DNA from: Deltaproteobacteria bacterium
Lineage (GTDB): Bacteria > Desulfobacterota > Binatia > DP-6
DNA: 35,979 bases
Direction of reading: 5' to 3'
NCBI GenBank assembly: GCA_005888095.1
Contig: VBKF01000126.1
Location: 1-35,979 of the forward strand
Shown: piece by piece, positions 25,709 through 35,979 of the stretch
How the letters are laid out: each line of letters opens with the position of its first letter
Numbering within the stretch: the stretch's first letter is position 1
Made by a program: the position numbers and the translations under genes
Notes under the pieces: model-generated
What the model saw: the letters and a program-made list of their open reading frames with translations, nothing else
What the model was told of the DNA's origin: nothing
The model's database searches: none

Positions 25709-26983
25709 TTGCTGCTGCGGTTGCGAGTGTACGTGTCTTCCCGTCCGGCCCGTGTCGGGATTCTGGCGTGCGTCCTGTTTCTGACAGGCCCCGCAGGCGC
25801 TCGCGAGCCGCGGACCTTGCACCTGCGTTTTCCGCGTCTGGCTGTGCCGGCAGGCGCCAACACCGAGGCGTGTGTCTTCCTGCGCCTGCCCGCGCAGAAG
25901 CCCTTCGAGCTCGCCAGCTGGGACATCAGGACGCGGAGCAGCGGCGCCGGCCTCGGCGCGCTCCACTTCCTCGTCTACGTCTATACCGGCGAACGCCTCG
26001 CCGAGTTCTCGAAGGATGCGGGGCACATCGTCCCGAGCCGTGGCTGCCTCGATCTGGGGCCCGTCGACCGCGACCGGCGACAGCTCGTCGCGAGCGGTTT
26101 CGCGCGCACCCGGGGCGCCTTGCCGCAGGGTGTGGCGCTGTCCCTCAATCCGGTCCCCGCCGTTCCCGGCGGGCCTCCCGAAGGCATCGGCCTGCTGCTC
26201 GACGGCAACTGGTCCAACGGAGGGTCGCGCACCCGCTACGCTTCGGCACGCGTCGTGCTTCACCGGGCTCCTGTCCACACCGTGCGACGACTGGCCCAGC
26301 CGATCTTCGAGCGCAGCGCGGAAATCGCCCTCGACGTGCCGCCGAACGTCTCGCCGAACGAAGGGCATGTGATGTCGACCGAGACCTCGACCGCCGCCTA
26401 CAACACCGCACATCCGGAGGCGCCGCCGGTGCGCGACACGTGGGGCGCTGGGATCACCGGAGGTCCGGCCGGCGACGCCTGCGTCCTCATGCTCACCGGT
26501 CACATGCACAAGCGCGGGCGCTTCTTCGGCGTCGACCTGATCGGCAGCGACGGCCAGGTGAACAATCCGGTAGGTGGTTTCCCGAACAGGTTCGAGCCCG
26601 GGCGCAGCCATCTATTCGCGGCCGTCGATTACACCGACCCCGGGATCCTCAGGTTCTCGCCACCCCAGCCGCTCCGCGCCACCGAGAGCCTGCACTACGC
26701 CTGCTGGGACGACAACGGCGTCACCACGCCGGTCCGGCTCGGCTGCGAGGAGACACAGGGTGTGACGCCCGGACGCCCGGGGAACCCGGCCAAGCCCTGC
26801 ACCTTCGGCTGTCCGGGCACCGACCCGGAATACCCCGGTCGCACCTTCACGGGCGCGTGCGTGCCGGCAAACCTCGTCGCCGGCGAGACACCTGACGACG
26901 AGGTGTGCGCGCTCGCCGGCTGGTACTTCGATGCGGCACCCGGATCCGGATGCGACGTGACCGGGCTGCCGGCCTTGCGCTGA
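25709..26983 (+). CDS. Secreted copper type II monooxygenase-like protein
   Basis: This 424-residue protein has a signal peptide (VGILACVLFLTGPAGA) and a beta-sandwich pattern like the peptidylglycine/dopamine monooxygenase core. Candidate copper ligands are H86 in ALHFLVYVYTG and the His-x-His H265/H267 in LTGHMHKRG, the usual CuM site, followed by LHYACWDDNG. PHM normally has a His-His pair at the first site and only one His is seen here, so activity is uncertain. Multiple Cys near the C-terminus suggest disulfides. The TTG start at 25709 is weak; GTG 25727 or 25733 are alternatives that keep the signal peptide. The 164 bp before it hold nothing recognisable. Confidence 0.6.
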   Translation: MLLRLRVYVSSRPARVGILACVLFLTGPAGAREPRTLHLRFPRLAVPAGANTEACVFLRLPAQKPFELASWDIRTRSSGAGLGALHFLVYVYTGERLAEFSKDAGHIVPSRGCLDLGPVDRDRRQLVASGFARTRGALPQGVALSLNPVPAVPGGPPEGIGLLLDGNWSNGGSRTRYASARVVLHRAPVHTVRRLAQPIFERSAEIALDVPPNVSPNEGHVMSTETSTAAYNTAHPEAPPVRDTWGAGITGGPAGDACVLMLTGHMHKRGRFFGVDLIGSDGQVNNPVGGFPNRFEPGRSHLFAAVDYTDPGILRFSPPQPLRATESLHYACWDDNGVTTPVRLGCEETQGVTPGRPGNPAKPCTFGCPGTDPEYPGRTFTGACVPANLVAGETPDDEVCALAGWYFDAAPGSGCDVTGLPALR

Positions 26984-29413: not shown

Positions 29414-30205
29414 ATGCCGCAGTCGAGAGTCGGTCGGTGGGCGTTGGCCGTTGCGGTCGGCCTCCTTGCGTGCCCGGCACGAGCACAGACGGCCGATGCG
29501 AGCGATCCGATCCCGGTCCTCGAGGGGGAGCGCATCCTCTCGCCGGGACCGCGCGCGCTCGGCTTCGACGGTCTCGCTGCCGACCCGTCCACGATCGGGA
29601 ACTTCCAGGGTGTCGTGGCGCTCGCGTACATGCGCGCGAGGGTCCGGGACACCACTGGCCACCGGTGGGTGATGGTGAACGACATCCGCATCTTCAAGGG
29701 AGACTACGTCTCCACCGACGGTGTGGCGCGGCGAGGGACGTTCGCCTTCGTCTGAATCGATCTGTTCGAGCCCGGTTCGGGCTCGCGAGCGCACGACTTC
29801 ACGGGCGGCATCACGCCCGCAGGCCTCGTGTGGACGGTTCGCCTTCCCGACGACACGGTCACCGTCGAGCCGCGCGGAAACGTCGTCACGGTCGACGTGC
29901 ACGACGTCGCGGTCGTGGACGACCGTCCGGCGCCCGCGGGCGAGACGCCGGCGACGGTGAGCCTCCAGATGACGTGGAAGGGCAGGGGCGGGGGTCGTCA
30001 TCTGAGGGCGGGAGCACCGGCCTTCGCCGGGCTGTTCTTCCGCCACACACGGGCGCGCGGCACCTTTTCCGGGGCCGAGGACGGCTTCGGCTTCGCATCC
30101 GATGCGGTGAAGCGCGCGCGCAGCACGTTCGCCGAGCTCGGGACGGAGCAGAACGGACTCTTCTTCGCCTTGGCGACCCGGTGCCCGCGATGCGGCGCGC
30201 CGTAG
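29414..30205 (+). pseudogene. Exported hypothetical protein interrupted by in-frame TGA
   Basis: ATG 29414 opens with a signal peptide (ALAVAVGLLACPARAQ), followed by VPVLEGERILS-like beta segments and HRWVMVNDIRIFKG. A TGA at 29753-29755 interrupts the frame, but the same frame continues with IDLFEPGSGSRAHDFTGGIT and further beta-rich sequence to TAG 30203-30205. A single TGG-to-TGA change would explain this, with Trp fitting between FAFV and IDLFEPG. Intact, it would have about 263 residues. The family is not recognised. The end overlaps the CusF-like gene by 16 bp, so a polar effect is possible. Confidence 0.6.
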
Positions 30206-30910
30206 GTCTCGCCGCGCTGCTCGGCGCGTTCGGGGGCGGCTGCGGCGCCCCGACCTACCACGGAGAGGGTGACGTCGTGGGAGTCGACGCGGGAGCCCGC
30301 CAGGTGACGATCAACCACGAGGACATCCCGGGCCTCATGCCCGCGATGACCATGACCTTCGCCGTCCGCTCGCCGAGCGCGCTCGCCGACGTCACCGCCG
30401 GGTCGCGCGTCCGGTTCGACCTCGTCAAGGAAGGCGAGCTGCTCGTCGTCACCCGGCTCGTGCCGCTCGGCCGAGCGAGCGGCGGCAGGCCCGGCATCCA
30501 CGACCACACGCCCCACCACGGAGGTGTGGTCGGGATGGTGGGCCTGCTCCACCTCGAGGCGGTTGCGGCGCGCGACGGGCTGGTGCGGGTGTACCTGACC
30601 GACGTGTGGCGGCGGCCCTTGCCGCTCGCCGGCGTGCAGGGCCGCGTGACCATCGGTCTCCCGGGCGCGAGCAGCGAGCTGGCGCTCGTCGCCGGGGAAG
30701 ACGCGCTCGAGGCGAAGGGGCCGCCGCTCGAAAGGGGCGGAGGTCGCGGCCGACGTCCGCCTCGAGCGGGACGGTCAGCCGATCGAATCCCTTGCCTGGC
30801 ACCGGGCCGGCATCTACGGCCTCGCGTGGGCCGGCCCGGTCCTCGTCTCGGGCGACACCCAGGGAAGCGTGGCGCTCTGGGACCTCGCCGAGCGCCTGCG
30901 CGCGCCCTGA
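30190..30910 (+). pseudogene. CusF-like copper-binding lipoprotein, frameshifted
   Basis: ATG 30190 encodes a lipoprotein (lipobox Cys18) with a CusF-type domain: GDVVGVDAGARQVTINHEDI followed by PGLMPAMTMTFAV. The His and the Met-x-Met are the copper ligands of this family, and Leu stands at the position of the usual Trp. A His-rich linker (IHDHTPHHGG) follows. At an A3G4 run (30731-30737) the frame breaks. Removing one base lets it continue as AEVAADVRLERDGQPIESLA and LVSGDTQGSVALWDLAERLR to TGA 30908-30910. The protein would bind copper at the outer face of a membrane. The lesion affects only the last third, so the metal site could still be made. Confidence 0.7.
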
Positions 30911-30918
30911 AAGAAGCG

Positions 30919-32949
30919 CTACTTCACGTAGTACTGCCCGATCGCGATGAACATCTCGTTCTCGGTGCTCTCGCCGCCGGTGATCGGGCAGGCGTCGCAC
31001 ACGCCGTTGTTCGCGCCCGGTACCGAGTCGCAGTCTCGGTCGGTCCTGCAGGTCGCGGGTGGATTCATCTTCCCGGCGACGCACTTCACCGGATTGCAGA
31101 AGGAGAACGACGGGGCGTTCGGCGGCACGTGCGACGCCCGCGTGACGAGGGTCGGGTCCGGCGACACCCCGTCGGCCGCGACGCCGTTGTTGTACACCGC
31201 GCAGTAGTGGAGCTTGTTGCCCGCGTTGAAGACGAGCGGCGGGTCGAAGGTCTTGTTGGGCGGGTCGTTGTAGACGAAGTTCTCGTAGAGGAGCTGGTCG
31301 CCGTGCTGCGGGTCGGTGATCCAGAAGTGCTCACCGTGCCGGTGCGTGTGCGAGGACAGGGTGAAGACCTGGGCTTGCTGCGGGCTGCTGAAGTCGTTGA
31401 AGGTGTAGTCGTTGCACACCGTCCCCTTCTGGTACGGAGGGATGCCGGTCGCGCCGAAGATCTTCGAGATGTCGAAGATGCCGTGGACGATGTACCGGCG
31501 GTCCTGAGCGTAGCTGTAGTTGAGCCATCCGTGCATTGTCGTGTCCTGGTCGGTCAGGTTGAAGGCATGCGGGTTCCAGAAGAGGATGCCCTTGGATGGT
31601 GTGGGGGCCCACACGCCCGGGGCGAAGTCGATGTCCGACTGGGCCTTCTGCGCGCCGCCGATCTGGGTGTAGTTGAAGAACCGACCCGGCAGCTGGGGGC
31701 CGTACCCGACGCAGGCGAACGACTCCTGCATCTCGCTCCTGCAGATGCCGCTCCCGCACGACGTGAGGTCGGTCGGCTCGCAGACCTGACCGTCCTTCTC
31801 CCCCCCGGCGCAGGTCCAGGTGCCGAACGACGGGTCGTGGATCTGCGCGACGGAGCCGAGGAACAGGTTCAAGATGAGGTGGTGGCTCTGCGGATCCTGC
31901 CGGAGGGTCTGCGCGTTCCAGAGGAAGTCGCCGAACGGATCCGTGAACTGGGCCGGCACCTGGTCCGTGAAGTCGAAGTAGGTCGCGAAGCAGAGCTCGT
32001 GCTGGCTGTGCGCCGGGAGCTTCCAGGGCGGCATGACGAACTGGTGGCCCTGGTCGGGGGGAGGCGGGTCGAGCGGAGCGGCGGTGATCGGCACCACGGG
32101 TGGCAGGCAGGCGTTCAGGATGGTCTGCGTCCCTGCCACCGTCCCGGTTTCGGGCGCGGTCGCATAGATCCACTGGCGCAGCACCTCGAGCTCGTCCTTG
32201 CTCAACGTGGTGGTGTTGTTCGGCATCGGGGCGAGGAGGACCTGGACGCCCGGCGGAAGGTAATCGGGTAGCTTCGCCGGATCGGTCTTCGCCAGGAGCT
32301 TCAGCCAGAGGTAGCTCTTTCGCTCGTCGCCCGGCTCGACGCGGTTGAGGGACGGCACCTCGGTCGAGGCCTTCTGGACGAGGTTCTTGTAGGCGACGTC
32401 GGGCCGTAGATCGAGTTGACCGTTCAGGGCTGTGGCGCCCCCGTGGCAGAGGGTGTTCGCGCAGTCGTGCCGGGCGAAGATCGCCTTCTGGATCGCGTCC
32501 CAGGTGCTCGCGTAAGCGACCGCGCCGCTGTCGCACGCCGAAAGACTGGCCGTGTAGCGCCGGGGCGTTCGATGCTTGGCACGGAGGCTCACCGTGAGCT
32601 TCTGGCAGCCGAAACCGATCTTCAGCGTCACTCTGGGCTTCACGAGATCGCCGCACGAGCTCCAGCGGGCTCCGAGCCGCCAGCAGGAACGGCCTTCTCC
32701 CCTCGGGCATCCGGTGCGGGTCGTCCGCAGCGAGCCGGTTGCCGTGCACGTCCCGCCGATCGTGACCCGCTTGCCCGCGACCTCGACCGAGTCCGTCCCG
32801 GTGGACGTCGCGTTGGTCACGAGCGCCTGGCCCGAATCGAGCAGGAAATGGCCGGAGCACGGCGTGCGCGCCGGCTTCCTGGCGAGCGCGGGCCCGACGG
32901 CGACGGCCAGCACGAAGGCCACGGCAGAGGGGCGGATCAGGAGACGCAT
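30919..32949 (-). CDS. Secreted cytochrome c-copper monooxygenase-like protein
   Basis: This 676-residue precursor has a signal peptide (AFVLAVAVGPALA). After a Cys-rich N-terminal domain it has a CX4CH heme site (Cys163, Cys168, His169) followed by a cytochrome-like segment (RVEPGDERKSYLWLKLL). From about residue 300 the PHM-like part carries His356-His357 (QSHHLIL), His461 (NPHAFN) and His534-x-His536 (SSHTHRHG), matching the order of copper ligands in type II monooxygenases; LHYCAVYNNG follows. Several CxxDxDC-like segments near the end suggest disulfides. Heme and copper in one exported chain would let electrons reach the oxygenase directly. The substrate is unknown. It converges with the CusF-like gene 8 bp away. 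Confidence 0.68.
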   Translation of the reverse strand: MRLLIRPSAVAFVLAVAVGPALARKPARTPCSGHFLLDSGQALVTNATSTGTDSVEVAGKRVTIGGTCTATGSLRTTRTGCPRGEGRSCWRLGARWSSCGDLVKPRVTLKIGFGCQKLTVSLRAKHRTPRRYTASLSACDSGAVAYASTWDAIQKAIFARHDCANTLCHGGATALNGQLDLRPDVAYKNLVQKASTEVPSLNRVEPGDERKSYLWLKLLAKTDPAKLPDYLPPGVQVLLAPMPNNTTTLSKDELEVLRQWIYATAPETGTVAGTQTILNACLPPVVPITAAPLDPPPPDQGHQFVMPPWKLPAHSQHELCFATYFDFTDQVPAQFTDPFGDFLWNAQTLRQDPQSHHLILNLFLGSVAQIHDPSFGTWTCAGGEKDGQVCEPTDLTSCGSGICRSEMQESFACVGYGPQLPGRFFNYTQIGGAQKAQSDIDFAPGVWAPTPSKGILFWNPHAFNLTDQDTTMHGWLNYSYAQDRRYIVHGIFDISKIFGATGIPPYQKGTVCNDYTFNDFSSPQQAQVFTLSSHTHRHGEHFWITDPQHGDQLLYENFVYNDPPNKTFDPPLVFNAGNKLHYCAVYNNGVAADGVSPDPTLVTRASHVPPNAPSFSFCNPVKCVAGKMNPPATCRTDRDCDSVPGANNGVCDACPITGGESTENEMFIAIGQYYVK

Positions 32950-33147
32950 CGGGACCCTCCTTGGATGGGCGGAGTACTACAACACATACCGCACCATCCG
33001 CCAACCAGAATAATCGAAGCGCCCGTCCGGTCGCGGAGGATGCTTCAATGGCTCCATCCGAGCCACGATCGGTCGCCGCCGCCCGTCCATGCCGCGGCGC
33101 GGCGCCGAACGTGACTTGCTCCCGTCGACGGTATAAGAGCGCCCCTC
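32950..33147. other. Divergent intergenic region
   Basis: The 198 bp separate the monooxygenase-like gene (minus) from the porin-like gene (plus). A TATAAG at 33132-33137 lies ten bases before ATG 33148 and would give an almost leaderless transcript; no good -35 is evident. On the other strand GGAGGG precedes the monooxygenase start by a suitable distance. Nothing else is recognisable. Confidence 0.35.
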
Positions 33148-34707
33148 ATGCTCCGGGCCGGGCCGCTCGTCCTCGCCGCCCTCGCCTCGCTCGCGGTCCC
33201 GCCGGCAGCGCGTGCGCTGCCCGCCTTCGCGCGCCGCTTCAACCTCGCCTGTGGCGCCTGCCACATCGCCGTGCCGCGGCTGAACGCCTTCGGCGAGGAG
33301 TTCCACATGAACGGCTTCAAGCCGCCGGGCACCATGTGGGCGCCGCTGCCCGGGAGCTGGCTCGAGCGCGTGAAGGACGGGATGGCGGTCTGGACGCGCG
33401 GCGAGTTCTACGAGCACTCGGACTTCGCGCGCGGCCCGACTCCGCGCGGCAGCCTGGCGGTCCCCGAGCACGCGAGCATCTACGTCGCTGGCGCGCTCAC
33501 GCCGAGCACGAGCGTCTTCATGGAGCTCGAGAACACGGTGCACGAGACCGACATCAACAAGCGCGGCGACTTCGTGAACAGCGACACGGGGGGCATCCAG
33601 AAGGGCTTCCTCATGATCGACCTGCCGATGCTGCTCGGCCTGCATGGGGGGCACGCGGGGCACGCCGGCATGCACCACGACATGGGGGACATGGACGGCG
33701 GCATGGCCACCATGGGCGAGGGGCTCGTCGGTCACGGGCCGATGATGATGATCGGCCGCGTCGACCCGTCGACCAACTTCTCGTACGCGGTCGACCGGCA
33801 GATCTTCCACGACGTGCCCGCCGACACCTCGGAGCGCGGCTTCCTCTTGCGCCTGGGGCTCCAGCCCTATGCCTTCGGCGCCAAGTTCTTCGGCATCTTC
33901 AAGCGCGGCGATCACACGCTGCTCGCGACCGAGCCGACGCTCTACCATGCCGAGGCGGCGCCCGGCGTCGACATCCACGGGCGCCTCTTCGCGTCGCACC
34001 TCCTCTACCAGGTCGGCTTCGGCAGCGATGCCGCGCCCGAGTTCACCGACCGCTTCCACACCTTCACGCCCTACACCATGCTGCGCTGGGACTTCGGGGA
34101 CGAGGACGGGCTCAACGGCTCGGTGTCGGCGCTCGGCAACTACGGCCGCGACGCGTACCGGGTGTTCTATCTCGCGCCCGCGCCCTTGCCCCCGATCCCG
34201 CTCCTGCGCATCGTCCCGGAGCACCGGCCGCCGCCACCGCCGGGACGCGGCACGATCGCGGCACAGCGCGACCTGGACGTGTGGCGCGAGATGCTGGGCG
34301 CCAACCTGCGGCGCGGGCCGTGGGACCTCTACGGCGCCTACTCCCATGACCAGGTGTTCGACGTGCCCGACCGGCTGGCGGGGCGCTTCGTGCGGCGCGC
34401 GCAGGGACTGACGGCGGAGGTCGACTACCGTCTGACGCACGGCCTGCTGCCCTCGATCCGCTACGACTGGATGAAGGCGGGCGGCTTCAAGAGCGACGTC
34501 GTCTTCGAGCCGGGGCCGCGCCAGTCCCAGGTCCTCCACCTCCAGATGCGCTGGTACCTCTTCGAGGGCGACGACCTGGCCCGGGTGCCCATCCCCGCCC
34601 TGCTCGCGCTGTCGCTGCGCGACAGCGTCAACCTGACCCCGGGCGGGTCGCATCCCTTCGGCGCCTGGCGCAACGGGGTCTTCCTCGGCTTCGACTTGGC
34701 ATTCTGA
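33148..34707 (+). CDS. Heme c-tagged porin-like outer-membrane protein with His/Met-rich insert
   Basis: This is a 519-residue precursor. A signal peptide is followed at once by a single heme c site (Cys35-GA-Cys38-His39, CGACH) and then a long series of amphipathic strands ending in Phe (FLGFDLAF), as in outer-membrane barrels. Residues about 165-202 are packed with His and Met (GGHAGHAGMHHDMGDMDGGM, then GHGPMMM), a likely soft-metal (copper) binding loop. A Pro-rich turn (EHRPPPPPGRG) occurs later. It may conduct electrons or metal across the outer membrane. The next gene starts one base after its stop, so it is co-transcribed with a diheme cytochrome. Confidence 0.72.
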   Translation: MLRAGPLVLAALASLAVPPAARALPAFARRFNLACGACHIAVPRLNAFGEEFHMNGFKPPGTMWAPLPGSWLERVKDGMAVWTRGEFYEHSDFARGPTPRGSLAVPEHASIYVAGALTPSTSVFMELENTVHETDINKRGDFVNSDTGGIQKGFLMIDLPMLLGLHGGHAGHAGMHHDMGDMDGGMATMGEGLVGHGPMMMIGRVDPSTNFSYAVDRQIFHDVPADTSERGFLLRLGLQPYAFGAKFFGIFKRGDHTLLATEPTLYHAEAAPGVDIHGRLFASHLLYQVGFGSDAAPEFTDRFHTFTPYTMLRWDFGDEDGLNGSVSALGNYGRDAYRVFYLAPAPLPPIPLLRIVPEHRPPPPPGRGTIAAQRDLDVWREMLGANLRRGPWDLYGAYSHDQVFDVPDRLAGRFVRRAQGLTAEVDYRLTHGLLPSIRYDWMKAGGFKSDVVFEPGPRQSQVLHLQMRWYLFEGDDLARVPIPALLALSLRDSVNLTPGGSHPFGAWRNGVFLGFDLAF

Positions 34708-34708
34708 G

Positions 34709-35419
34709 ATGCGGGTTTTCCCGGCGTCGCTCCTCGTCCTCGCTCTCGGCCGTGCGGCAGTCGGGGCGGATCCGGCCACCGCCGTCTACAACCACGCCTG
34801 CGCCTGGTGTCACGGCAAGGACGGGCGCGGCGATGGCCCGGCCGCGTTCTCCATCAACAAGTACCTCTCGCCACGCCCGCGCGACTTCACGCGCGGGCTC
34901 TTCAAGCTGCGCTCGACCCCGAGCGGCCAGGTCCCCACCGACGACGACCTGCTGCGCACGCTCGAGCGCGGCATCCCGGGCTACATGCCGTCGTTCCGCG
35001 GCCTCACGGCGGGCGAGCGGCGGCTCGCCGTCACCGCCGTCAAGGGCTTCTTTCCGGGATTCGCGACCGCTCATGCGACGCCCATCGCGGTTCCGCCCCC
35101 GCCGCCGGCCGACGCCGCCGCGGTGGCCCGCGGCCGCGAGGCGTACGCGGCAGCAGGCTGTGCGGCCTGCCATGGCGAGCGCGGGCGCGGCGACGGCCCG
35201 TCGGCGCCCGCGCTGAGAGATTCCGACGGTCTGCCGATCCGCCCGGCCGACCTTCGCTACCCGGCGCGCTTCAAGGGCGGTGCGGAGCCGGCCGACGTCT
35301 ACCGGACCCTCATGAGCGGGCTCGACGGCACACCCATGCCGTCCTACGCCTCGGCGTTCGATGATCCCCGGGCGCCCTGGGACCTCGTCGCGTACCTCGG
35401 CTCGCTCCGCCGGCGCTGA
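34709..35419 (+). CDS. Diheme cytochrome c
   Basis: This 236-residue exported protein has a signal peptide (LLVLALGRAAVGA) and two cytochrome c domains. Heme sites are CAWCH (Cys31-Cys34-His35) and CAACH (Cys151-Cys154-His155). Axial Met candidates sit in GYMPSFRG and TPMPSYASAF. The two domains share GxGDGP after each heme, which indicates an internal duplication. A Pro-rich linker (VPPPPPA) separates them. The gene begins one base after the porin-like gene, and both have heme, so they probably form an electron-transfer pair between periplasm and cell surface. It is complete. Confidence 0.88.
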   Translation: MRVFPASLLVLALGRAAVGADPATAVYNHACAWCHGKDGRGDGPAAFSINKYLSPRPRDFTRGLFKLRSTPSGQVPTDDDLLRTLERGIPGYMPSFRGLTAGERRLAVTAVKGFFPGFATAHATPIAVPPPPPADAAAVARGREAYAAAGCAACHGERGRGDGPSAPALRDSDGLPIRPADLRYPARFKGGAEPADVYRTLMSGLDGTPMPSYASAFDDPRAPWDLVAYLGSLRRR

Positions 35420-35472
35420 TCCGCGCTTCGTGCCTTGAATGGCCCGCAGGCCACCCCTACAGTGGATGGTCG

Positions 35473-35979
35473 ATGCGCGCCCCTGGCTTGCTCGTCCTGC
35501 TGCTCGCGGCGCGGGGCGCCGCCGCCCATATCATCCCGATCCCGCCGAGCACCTGCGTCCTCGACCCGGTCGAGATCGTCGCGCCGGCGACCGGTGTCGC
35601 GGCCACGGTCGCCGCACCCGCGGCGGCCGACCAGCTCACCATCCATTGGGATGTCGCCGCGAACCAGGCGCAGCTCGATCTGGCGAGCGTCCCGCCGCGG
35701 AGCTTCGTGGCAGCCGGCGTGTCGGGTACGTTCGCCCTGCCGACCTTCTTCTCCGCGACGTTCACGCACAACGGCGACCTCACGGTCACGGTTCCCGTCG
35801 TCTTTGCGATGGACGGGCGCACGGTTGCCGTGCCCCTCATGCTCACGACCGGCCTCGCGGCCGCAGGGGGGACGATGGTCGCGGGCGTGCCGATCGGGCC
35901 TCCCACCGGCGATGGGCGCTTCACGCTGGTCGGCATCACGGCCAGCAGCGGCCTCGGTCCGCCCTTCGGCCCCGGGATG
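35473..35979 (+). CDS. Exported hypothetical protein (3' partial)
   Basis: ATG 35473 opens a frame that stays open to the window edge (169 codons). The N-terminus (PGLLVLLLAARGAAA) is a signal peptide that would leave His as the first mature residue (HIIPIPPSTC). The rest is beta-rich and low in charge (FFSATFTHNGDLTVTVPVVF). The family is not recognised. An N-terminal His recalls the LPMO-like protein at 21244, but no second His of a brace can be confirmed in the visible part. It follows the diheme cytochrome by 53 bp and may belong to the same cluster. Confidence 0.6.
   Translation, partial: MRAPGLLVLLLAARGAAAHIIPIPPSTCVLDPVEIVAPATGVAATVAAPAAADQLTIHWDVAANQAQLDLASVPPRSFVAAGVSGTFALPTFFSATFTHNGDLTVTVPVVFAMDGRTVAVPLMLTTGLAAAGGTMVAGVPIGPPTGDGRFTLVGITASSGLGPPFGPGM

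Follow-up and report, generated by a model that had tools for sequence, protein, structure and literature searches.

A Met/His-rich insert and a copper-gene neighbourhood in a divergent clade of Cyc2-like cytochrome-porins

In this work, we examined a pair of genes at one end of a 35,979-nucleotide stretch of genomic DNA from a Deltaproteobacteria bacterium (hereafter the window). By its sequence, the first product falls among the Cyc2-like fused cytochrome-porins, in a divergent branch whose members come mainly from Nitrospirota; the second is a diheme cytochrome c. Comparison of relatives establishes, at the sequence level, a fused-heme architecture, a conserved gene pair, an insert-bearing clade with Met and His residues of its own, and a copper-gene neighbourhood around that clade. 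We tentatively favour, at somewhat less than an even chance, a model where the pair works as a copper-adapted redox porin of the Cyc2 type, passing electrons from Cu(I) through the barrel heme to the diheme cytochrome. The open-licence literature searched showed no account of a copper-linked Cyc2 branch.

The features of the two genes, and of a CusF-like gene upstream, are collected in table 1. The signal-peptide-like start of the barrel protein terminates, by eye, at ...AARA and is followed immediately by LPAFARRFNLACGACH; a single CxxCH is present, and the long body closes on a C-terminal Phe. The original prediction had placed a heme right after the signal peptide and, further on, a loop of about 38 residues rich in His and Met; both are borne out, the latter as an insert of 41 residues. 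The densest 40-residue segment of the protein holds 14 Met and His residues together, a value that 2 of 20,000 shuffled versions of its sequence reach. In Keffer et al. 2021 (PMC8406198), the Cyc2 signature is given as AXPXFAR[Q/K][T/Y], CXXCH, and PXL four residues on. The window protein reads ALPAFARRF, agreeing over AXPXFAR and differing in the last two positions (R and F); its Nitrospirota relatives mostly carry FARKY, some FARKH, at this motif upstream of the heme. Three further elements of the Cyc2 pattern are present: a signal peptide (by eye) ahead of the one N-terminal CXXCH, a PXL four residues after it (CH-IAV-PRL), and a length of 519 residues against the at least 365 expected.

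Table 1. Features of the barrel gene, its diheme partner and the CusF-like gene, in positions of the window
Feature	Position	Strand	Evidence and remarks
CusF-like copper-binding protein, lipoprotein-like start (by eye)	30190..30740	+	PF11604, 74.1 bits, cut-off 27
Cyc2-like fused monoheme cytochrome-porin (putative), 519 aa, of the insert-bearing, copper-linked clade	33148..34707	+	ORF, translation, tree, profile match
Signal-peptide-like N-terminus, residues 1-23	33148..33216	+	By eye: hydrophobic core, AxA end
c-type heme motif CGACH, residues 35-39, then PRL (PXL motif)	33250..33264	+	Translation; motif definition in PMC8406198
H53-M54	33304..33309	+	Invariant in 17/17 insert-clade rows covering the site; sister clade L/M/Q and E, 21/21
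Met/His-rich insert, residues 160-200, 41 aa	33625..33747	+	Between hand-drawn strands 4 and 5; 8 Met, 6 His
M199-x-M201 of GPMMM	33742..33750	+	18/18 insert-clade rows
Diheme cytochrome c, putative periplasmic electron partner	34709..35419	+	Two CxxCH; Pfam Cytochrome_CBB3, Cytochrom_C; conserved neighbour

Searched against Pfam and NCBIfam, the barrel protein matched no family. In profile alignments (hhalign), its family aligned with one Cyc2-like group at 100% over 347 columns and with another, carrying FARQ and PAL motifs, at 99.2% over 122 columns, neither group containing a named, tested Cyc2. A tree of 60 rows (IQ-TREE) separated the 40 family rows, as a single group (100/100), from 20 other Cyc2-like proteins, a comparison group without a named Cyc2 from which two of 22 candidate rows, L020 and L098, had dropped out at the motif filter. 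Barrel alignment and tree exclude L129, a repeat of L044, together with L144 and L145, the ends of one gene split across contigs; alignment A4 covers 33 of the 40 family rows (without L045, L051, L130, L131, L135, L139 and L140). Two clades make up the family, one with the insert (18 rows plus L119; support 98/91) and one with a short turn in its place (97/92). The window lineage sits on a branch of length 1.11 and its letter make-up deviates from that of the alignment, so that the support values overstate how sure its placement in the insert clade is.

The two sister clades serve as natural controls. In the insert clade, the turn between strands 4 and 5 spans 22-45 residues, with 2-9 Met and 0-7 His per row (18 rows), a Met count that is partly definitional because rows were assigned to this clade by an insert of 20 or more residues with 2 or more Met; in the short-turn clade, the same turn has 9 residues (13 in one row) and 0-1 Met in 21/21 rows. 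H53, M54, M199 and M201 are invariant in the insert rows; the short-turn clade has other residues there or lacks the positions. His is not fixed within the insert. The original prediction would have been undermined if most homologues lacked the loop; it is kept throughout its own clade and absent from the sister clade, and the outcome thus depends on which homologues are chosen. A second barrel copy in one genome, G754 (L119, 7937-10681), has a long insert poor in both residues (35 residues, 1 Met, 1 His) and reads N-M in place of H53-M54; its diheme gene lies directly upstream and encodes a tail with a single Met, and no tested copper gene was found within ~8 kb of it. This copy works as a further natural control.

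Copper genes (Cu-ATPase, CusA, CusF or CopD) occur within 8 kb of the barrel gene in 12 of the 19 insert genomes and in 0 of the 20 short-turn genomes, a contrast whose Fisher p of 1.3e-5 ignores kinship and is inflated, since the genomes are related and do not provide independent observations. Near one short-turn gene (G525), the edge of a heavy-metal-type RND operon lies ~7 kb off, below the length threshold for neighbours; counting it gives 1/20 and p = 1.3e-4, likewise inflated by kinship. The reference proteins of the neighbour search came largely from insert-clade loci and could favour that clade for CopD and CusA; counts of Cu-ATPase, CusF, multicopper oxidase and CopB rest on family models. 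Taken alone, a Cu-translocating P-type ATPase (TIGR01511 over cut-off) lies within 8 kb in 7/19 insert genomes, all Nitrospirota-type, against 0/20 short-turn genomes and ~0.19 expected by chance; the same model matches in all 39 genomes at E<=1e-100, over cut-off in 38. Its gene is upstream of the barrel in some insert loci and downstream in others, and such differences in gene order between loci argue against one inherited arrangement. Elsewhere the neighbours are a CusA/CzcA pump (G500), a CusF gene with a CopD gene (G002), a downstream CopD gene in two congeners of the window genome, and PpoB2 'Copper chaperone' and zf_CopZ genes near two insert loci; the direction of CopD transport is debated. 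In the window, the CusF-like gene lies ~2.4 kb upstream of the barrel. The remaining 7 of 19 insert genomes had none of the tested copper genes in the stretches examined, some of them cut by contig ends. Overall, this comparative evidence supports a copper link of the insert clade, at a strength that kinship inflates.

Several other features of these loci can be recorded. The reading frame of the CusF-like gene (30190-30912) appears broken or shifted near 30735. Other metal genes near some loci, NikR-like and ZnuA-like (by eye) as well as HupE/UreJ, count against the copper reading; in the first 3.5 kb of L114 and L115, the ZnuA-like and NikR-like genes are close to the copper ATPase, and L114 also contains a weak match to the porin AaxA and a MerR-type regulator whose MerR and ZntR scores exceed its CueR score. 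Just ahead of the barrel, nine insert-clade loci (L112-L118, L049 and L051) encode secreted-looking proteins of ~120 residues (clusters c11 and c17), with a C-x4-C motif visible where the sequence extends far enough; the one tested against Pfam gave no match. Two large proteins of the window, at 30919-32949 (-) and 25709-26983 (+), contain HTH-x2-G or HMH-x2-G stretches, which we take to resemble the motifs of type II copper monooxygenases; the former had no match in Pfam. Two Nitrospirae loci have ORFs with 11 CxxCH a few kb upstream of the barrel (L050, 2221-4434; L051, 172-2322).

The simplest alternative is that the protein is an ordinary Cyc2, that is, a Fe(II)-oxidising cytochrome-porin that feeds the diheme, with the Met/His insert being incidental. 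Its Cyc2-type N-terminus with PXL motif and the profile matches to other Cyc2-like groups are as this reading would have it, and so is the order of cyc2 followed by a c4-type cyc1 in Acidithiobacillus, as reported in PMC10654088. Yet the branch is separate from the 20 other Cyc2-like proteins sampled, and the insert, together with the H and M positions, marks a single clade found beside copper genes. Moreover, thioether ligands from Met are suited to Cu(I) and not to Fe(II). We hold an ordinary Cyc2 to be unlikely.

The diheme gene starts one base past the barrel stop codon, so that co-transcription of the two, proposed from the outset, is plausible; a simple scan across 32800-35979 turned up neither a promoter-like nor a terminator-like site. 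Directly downstream and on the same strand, the diheme is present in 40 of the 41 family stretches reaching past the barrel, in both clades, with L119 the exception (here L129 repeats L044; L051, L140 and L144 end at the barrel and are outside the count). Among 19 other Cyc2-like loci with 1.2-2.7 kb downstream, none had a homologue of this diheme there; six had some other heme-motif ORF downstream (L151, L158, L161, L163, L166 and L167), and L163 has upstream a one-heme ORF weakly matching the diheme (E=1.6e-9). These loci supersede an earlier control of 33 other Cyc2-like genes, whose downstream stretches (mostly ~0.4-0.6 kb) were too short to see two hemes; in it, a one-heme ORF was downstream in two cases and a heme ORF upstream in four, two of these with two hemes. 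The best solved relative of the partner (236 residues) is PDB 6h5l_B, a conserved hypothetical cytochrome that matches across residues 24-233 (E=6.7e-43); we take this chain to be the diheme subunit Kustc0457 of a Kuenenia HAO-like complex, its own partner presumably being a multiheme enzyme, unlike the barrel partner here. Within the 45 residues before the first heme, a stretch that may take in part of the signal peptide, the dihemes of 14 Nitrospirota-type insert loci have 3-12 Met, with MDHS[STK]M in six, versus 1-3 Met in the short-turn dihemes; the ranges touch, as three of the latter have 3 and two insert-clade dihemes have only 3. The window lineage has a diheme without such a Met tail. 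Directly after the diheme in that lineage there is a conserved family (window 35473-35979; L044 4192-5160) with no Pfam match. The proposal of an electron conduit with the diheme as its partner is thus sustained by the Cyc2-like homology and by the constancy of the pair.

The barrel protein probably forms an outer-membrane beta barrel. A PDB search with the single sequence returned the porin OmpK35 as best match, weakly (E=0.094), and searches with two family profiles gave no porin match. Amphipathic beta periodicity across the family covers 115 positions, against a shuffle mean of 71 (SD 14.5) and a maximum of 130 in 500 shuffles; the number of beta segments in the same analysis (27 vs 21.8 in shuffles) is little informative. 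Strands drawn by hand come to ~16, four of them ahead of the insert. AlphaFold2 models, from 9-row alignments led by the window protein or by a Nitrospirota relative, are mostly beta at pLDDT values of 37 and 36, too low for use. The barrel of the original prediction is thus probable; as to the 16-stranded body of a Cyc2, the observations are a modest periodicity and models of low confidence. According to PMC8406198, both termini of a porin lie in the periplasm, where its turns are short, and the loops on the outside are longer; for Cyc2, Keffer et al. have the heme domain plug the barrel at its periplasmic mouth. Applying this topology to the strand order, and considering the 9-residue turn of the sister clade, we infer that the insert forms a turn in the periplasm, on the same side as the heme.

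This placement bears on another suggestion of the original prediction, a copper-uptake gate, which would have its loop exposed to the outside. A Met/His-rich sequence within a probable outer-membrane barrel would fit such a gate, and the copper connection itself is supported; nonetheless, the insert replaces the 9-residue turn between strands 4 and 5, which is periplasmic if both termini are periplasmic, and most of the copper genes nearby serve efflux (Cu-ATPase, CusA, CusF). Strand order therefore makes an external uptake gate unlikely, and with the neighbours considered we rate it as most improbable. A comparison with porin-cytochrome conduits had also been called for by the original prediction: MtrAB, MtoAB and PioAB resemble the present pair in outer-membrane electron transfer through a barrel, but they have a separate multiheme cytochrome and a larger barrel (26 strands in MtrCAB, PMC8406198), whereas here one heme is fused to the barrel and the partner has two.

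Cyc2 is the nearest relative of the barrel protein. The latter shares with the Cyc2 of Fe(II) oxidisers (Acidithiobacillus, Mariprofundus PV-1 and Cyt572 of Leptospirillum) a signal peptide, one N-terminal CxxCH shortly after AxPxFAR, the PXL motif and a porin-like C-terminal body, and a periplasmic cytochrome gene comes next, like cyc1 in Acidithiobacillus. It differs in forming a branch apart from the Cyc2-like proteins sampled (in a tree without named Cyc2), in the RF that ends the window motif where Keffer et al. have [Q/K][T/Y] and the Nitrospirota relatives mostly KY, and in the insert, H53/M54 and the copper genes nearby.

In function, the pcoAB operon comes closest; PMC12509749 describes it as two genes, for a barrel with a periplasmic His/Met-rich region and for a multicopper oxidase. 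Like PcoB/CopB with PcoA (Caulobacter, E. coli Pco), the present pair joins a barrel to a redox partner in a copper setting and has a Met/His-rich region, here placed on the periplasmic side by strand order; unlike them, it shows no Pfam homology, its barrel bears heme, its Met/His region is an internal turn, and a diheme cytochrome stands in the place of the multicopper oxidase. The likeness raises a further alternative, namely a PcoB/CopB-like export channel whose insert collects copper, with heme and diheme acting as a redox sensor or copper reductase, not an oxidase. The copper neighbourhood fits it equally, the periplasmic His/Met region of PcoB is needed for copper resistance (PMC12509749), and CopB/PcoB (PF05275) is encoded in 0/19 insert genomes versus 8/20 short-turn genomes (p = 0.003); the last two points speak for the copper-adapted redox porin as well. 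But the barrel is no CopB homologue by Pfam, PF05275 matching neither the window protein nor any of 33 family members, and the heme and the diheme partner are also found in the short-turn sister clade; being common to both clades, they either predate the insert or are independent of it. Such an export channel appears distinctly unlikely.

The family is unevenly distributed. The window's own genome gave one match to the barrel protein; copies of the same genus match at 90% and 93%, and another genus of the same taxonomic family gave two fragments. Two close copies come from MAGs of the window genome's genus, Deltaproteobacteria bacterium DP_3 and DP_26, to which the tree tool gave the label Myxococcota. 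Elsewhere in the phylum there is one relative (L007), making 2 of 395 genomes including the window's own at E<=1e-30, in a sample without congeners; this very patchy occurrence suggests that the barrel gene was gained horizontally in the window's phylum. No relative was found in viral contigs, where two pattern matches were seen, nor in plasmids, queried with L113 only. A pattern scan of GTDB contigs recovered eight family loci, among them MAGs of Ca. Troglogloeales and Nitrospirae; because one of its two patterns sits at the insert end, the frequency of the insert was judged instead from whole-genome profile searches. In the phylum of one Troglogloeales genome (G357), the family occurs in 29 of 395 genomes at E<=1e-20.

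Ca. Troglogloeales is also the name on the MAGs of three relatives, and PMC9040806 counts the Cyc2 of this order among the candidates for oxidising Mn. This could be read as a conduit for Mn(II) oxidation, the role put forward for Cyc2 in Ca. Manganitrophaceae. Against that stands the presence of this branch in 10 of 18 Ca. Troglogloeales genomes, with five others, of 4.2-5.2 Mb, having only other Cyc2-like matches, and for this reason we marked the reading down. In addition, Mn(II) does not favour Met ligands. A role in Mn oxidation is, in our view, very unlikely.

Returning to the copper-adapted redox porin, the pair might operate as follows. The barrel would lie in the outer membrane with its heme domain plugging the periplasmic mouth, and the Met/His-rich insert would form a periplasmic turn beside this plug. 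There the insert, probably together with H53/M54 and M199/M201, would bind periplasmic copper, most likely Cu(I), of the kind handled by CusF, CopD or the Cu-ATPase. An electron from Cu(I) would pass to the barrel heme, on to the diheme cytochrome and into the respiratory chain, and the Cu(II) so formed could leave through the barrel. Barrel and diheme would then do the job that falls elsewhere to PcoA and PcoB, with the respiratory chain as electron acceptor. In its full extent, as a respiratory cuprous oxidase and exporter in one, where a Cyc2 branch was retuned to copper, Cu(II) leaves by the same barrel, no multicopper oxidase is needed to detoxify copper and energy is possibly conserved, the proposal is rather unlikely. 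With PF07732, multicopper oxidases gave strong matches (E below 1e-30) in 2/19 insert genomes and 9/20 short-turn genomes. The window's own genome is one of the former 2 and has two such genes; hence the pair is not its only possible cuprous oxidase, and the idea of a replacement is weakened there.

Cyc2-like genes serve as markers of Fe(II) oxidation. If a Cyc2-like branch is tied to copper, some calls of Fe(II) oxidation, as well as of Mn oxidation, would be wrong. Such a branch, if true, would also mean one more way, by electron transfer, of handling Cu(I).
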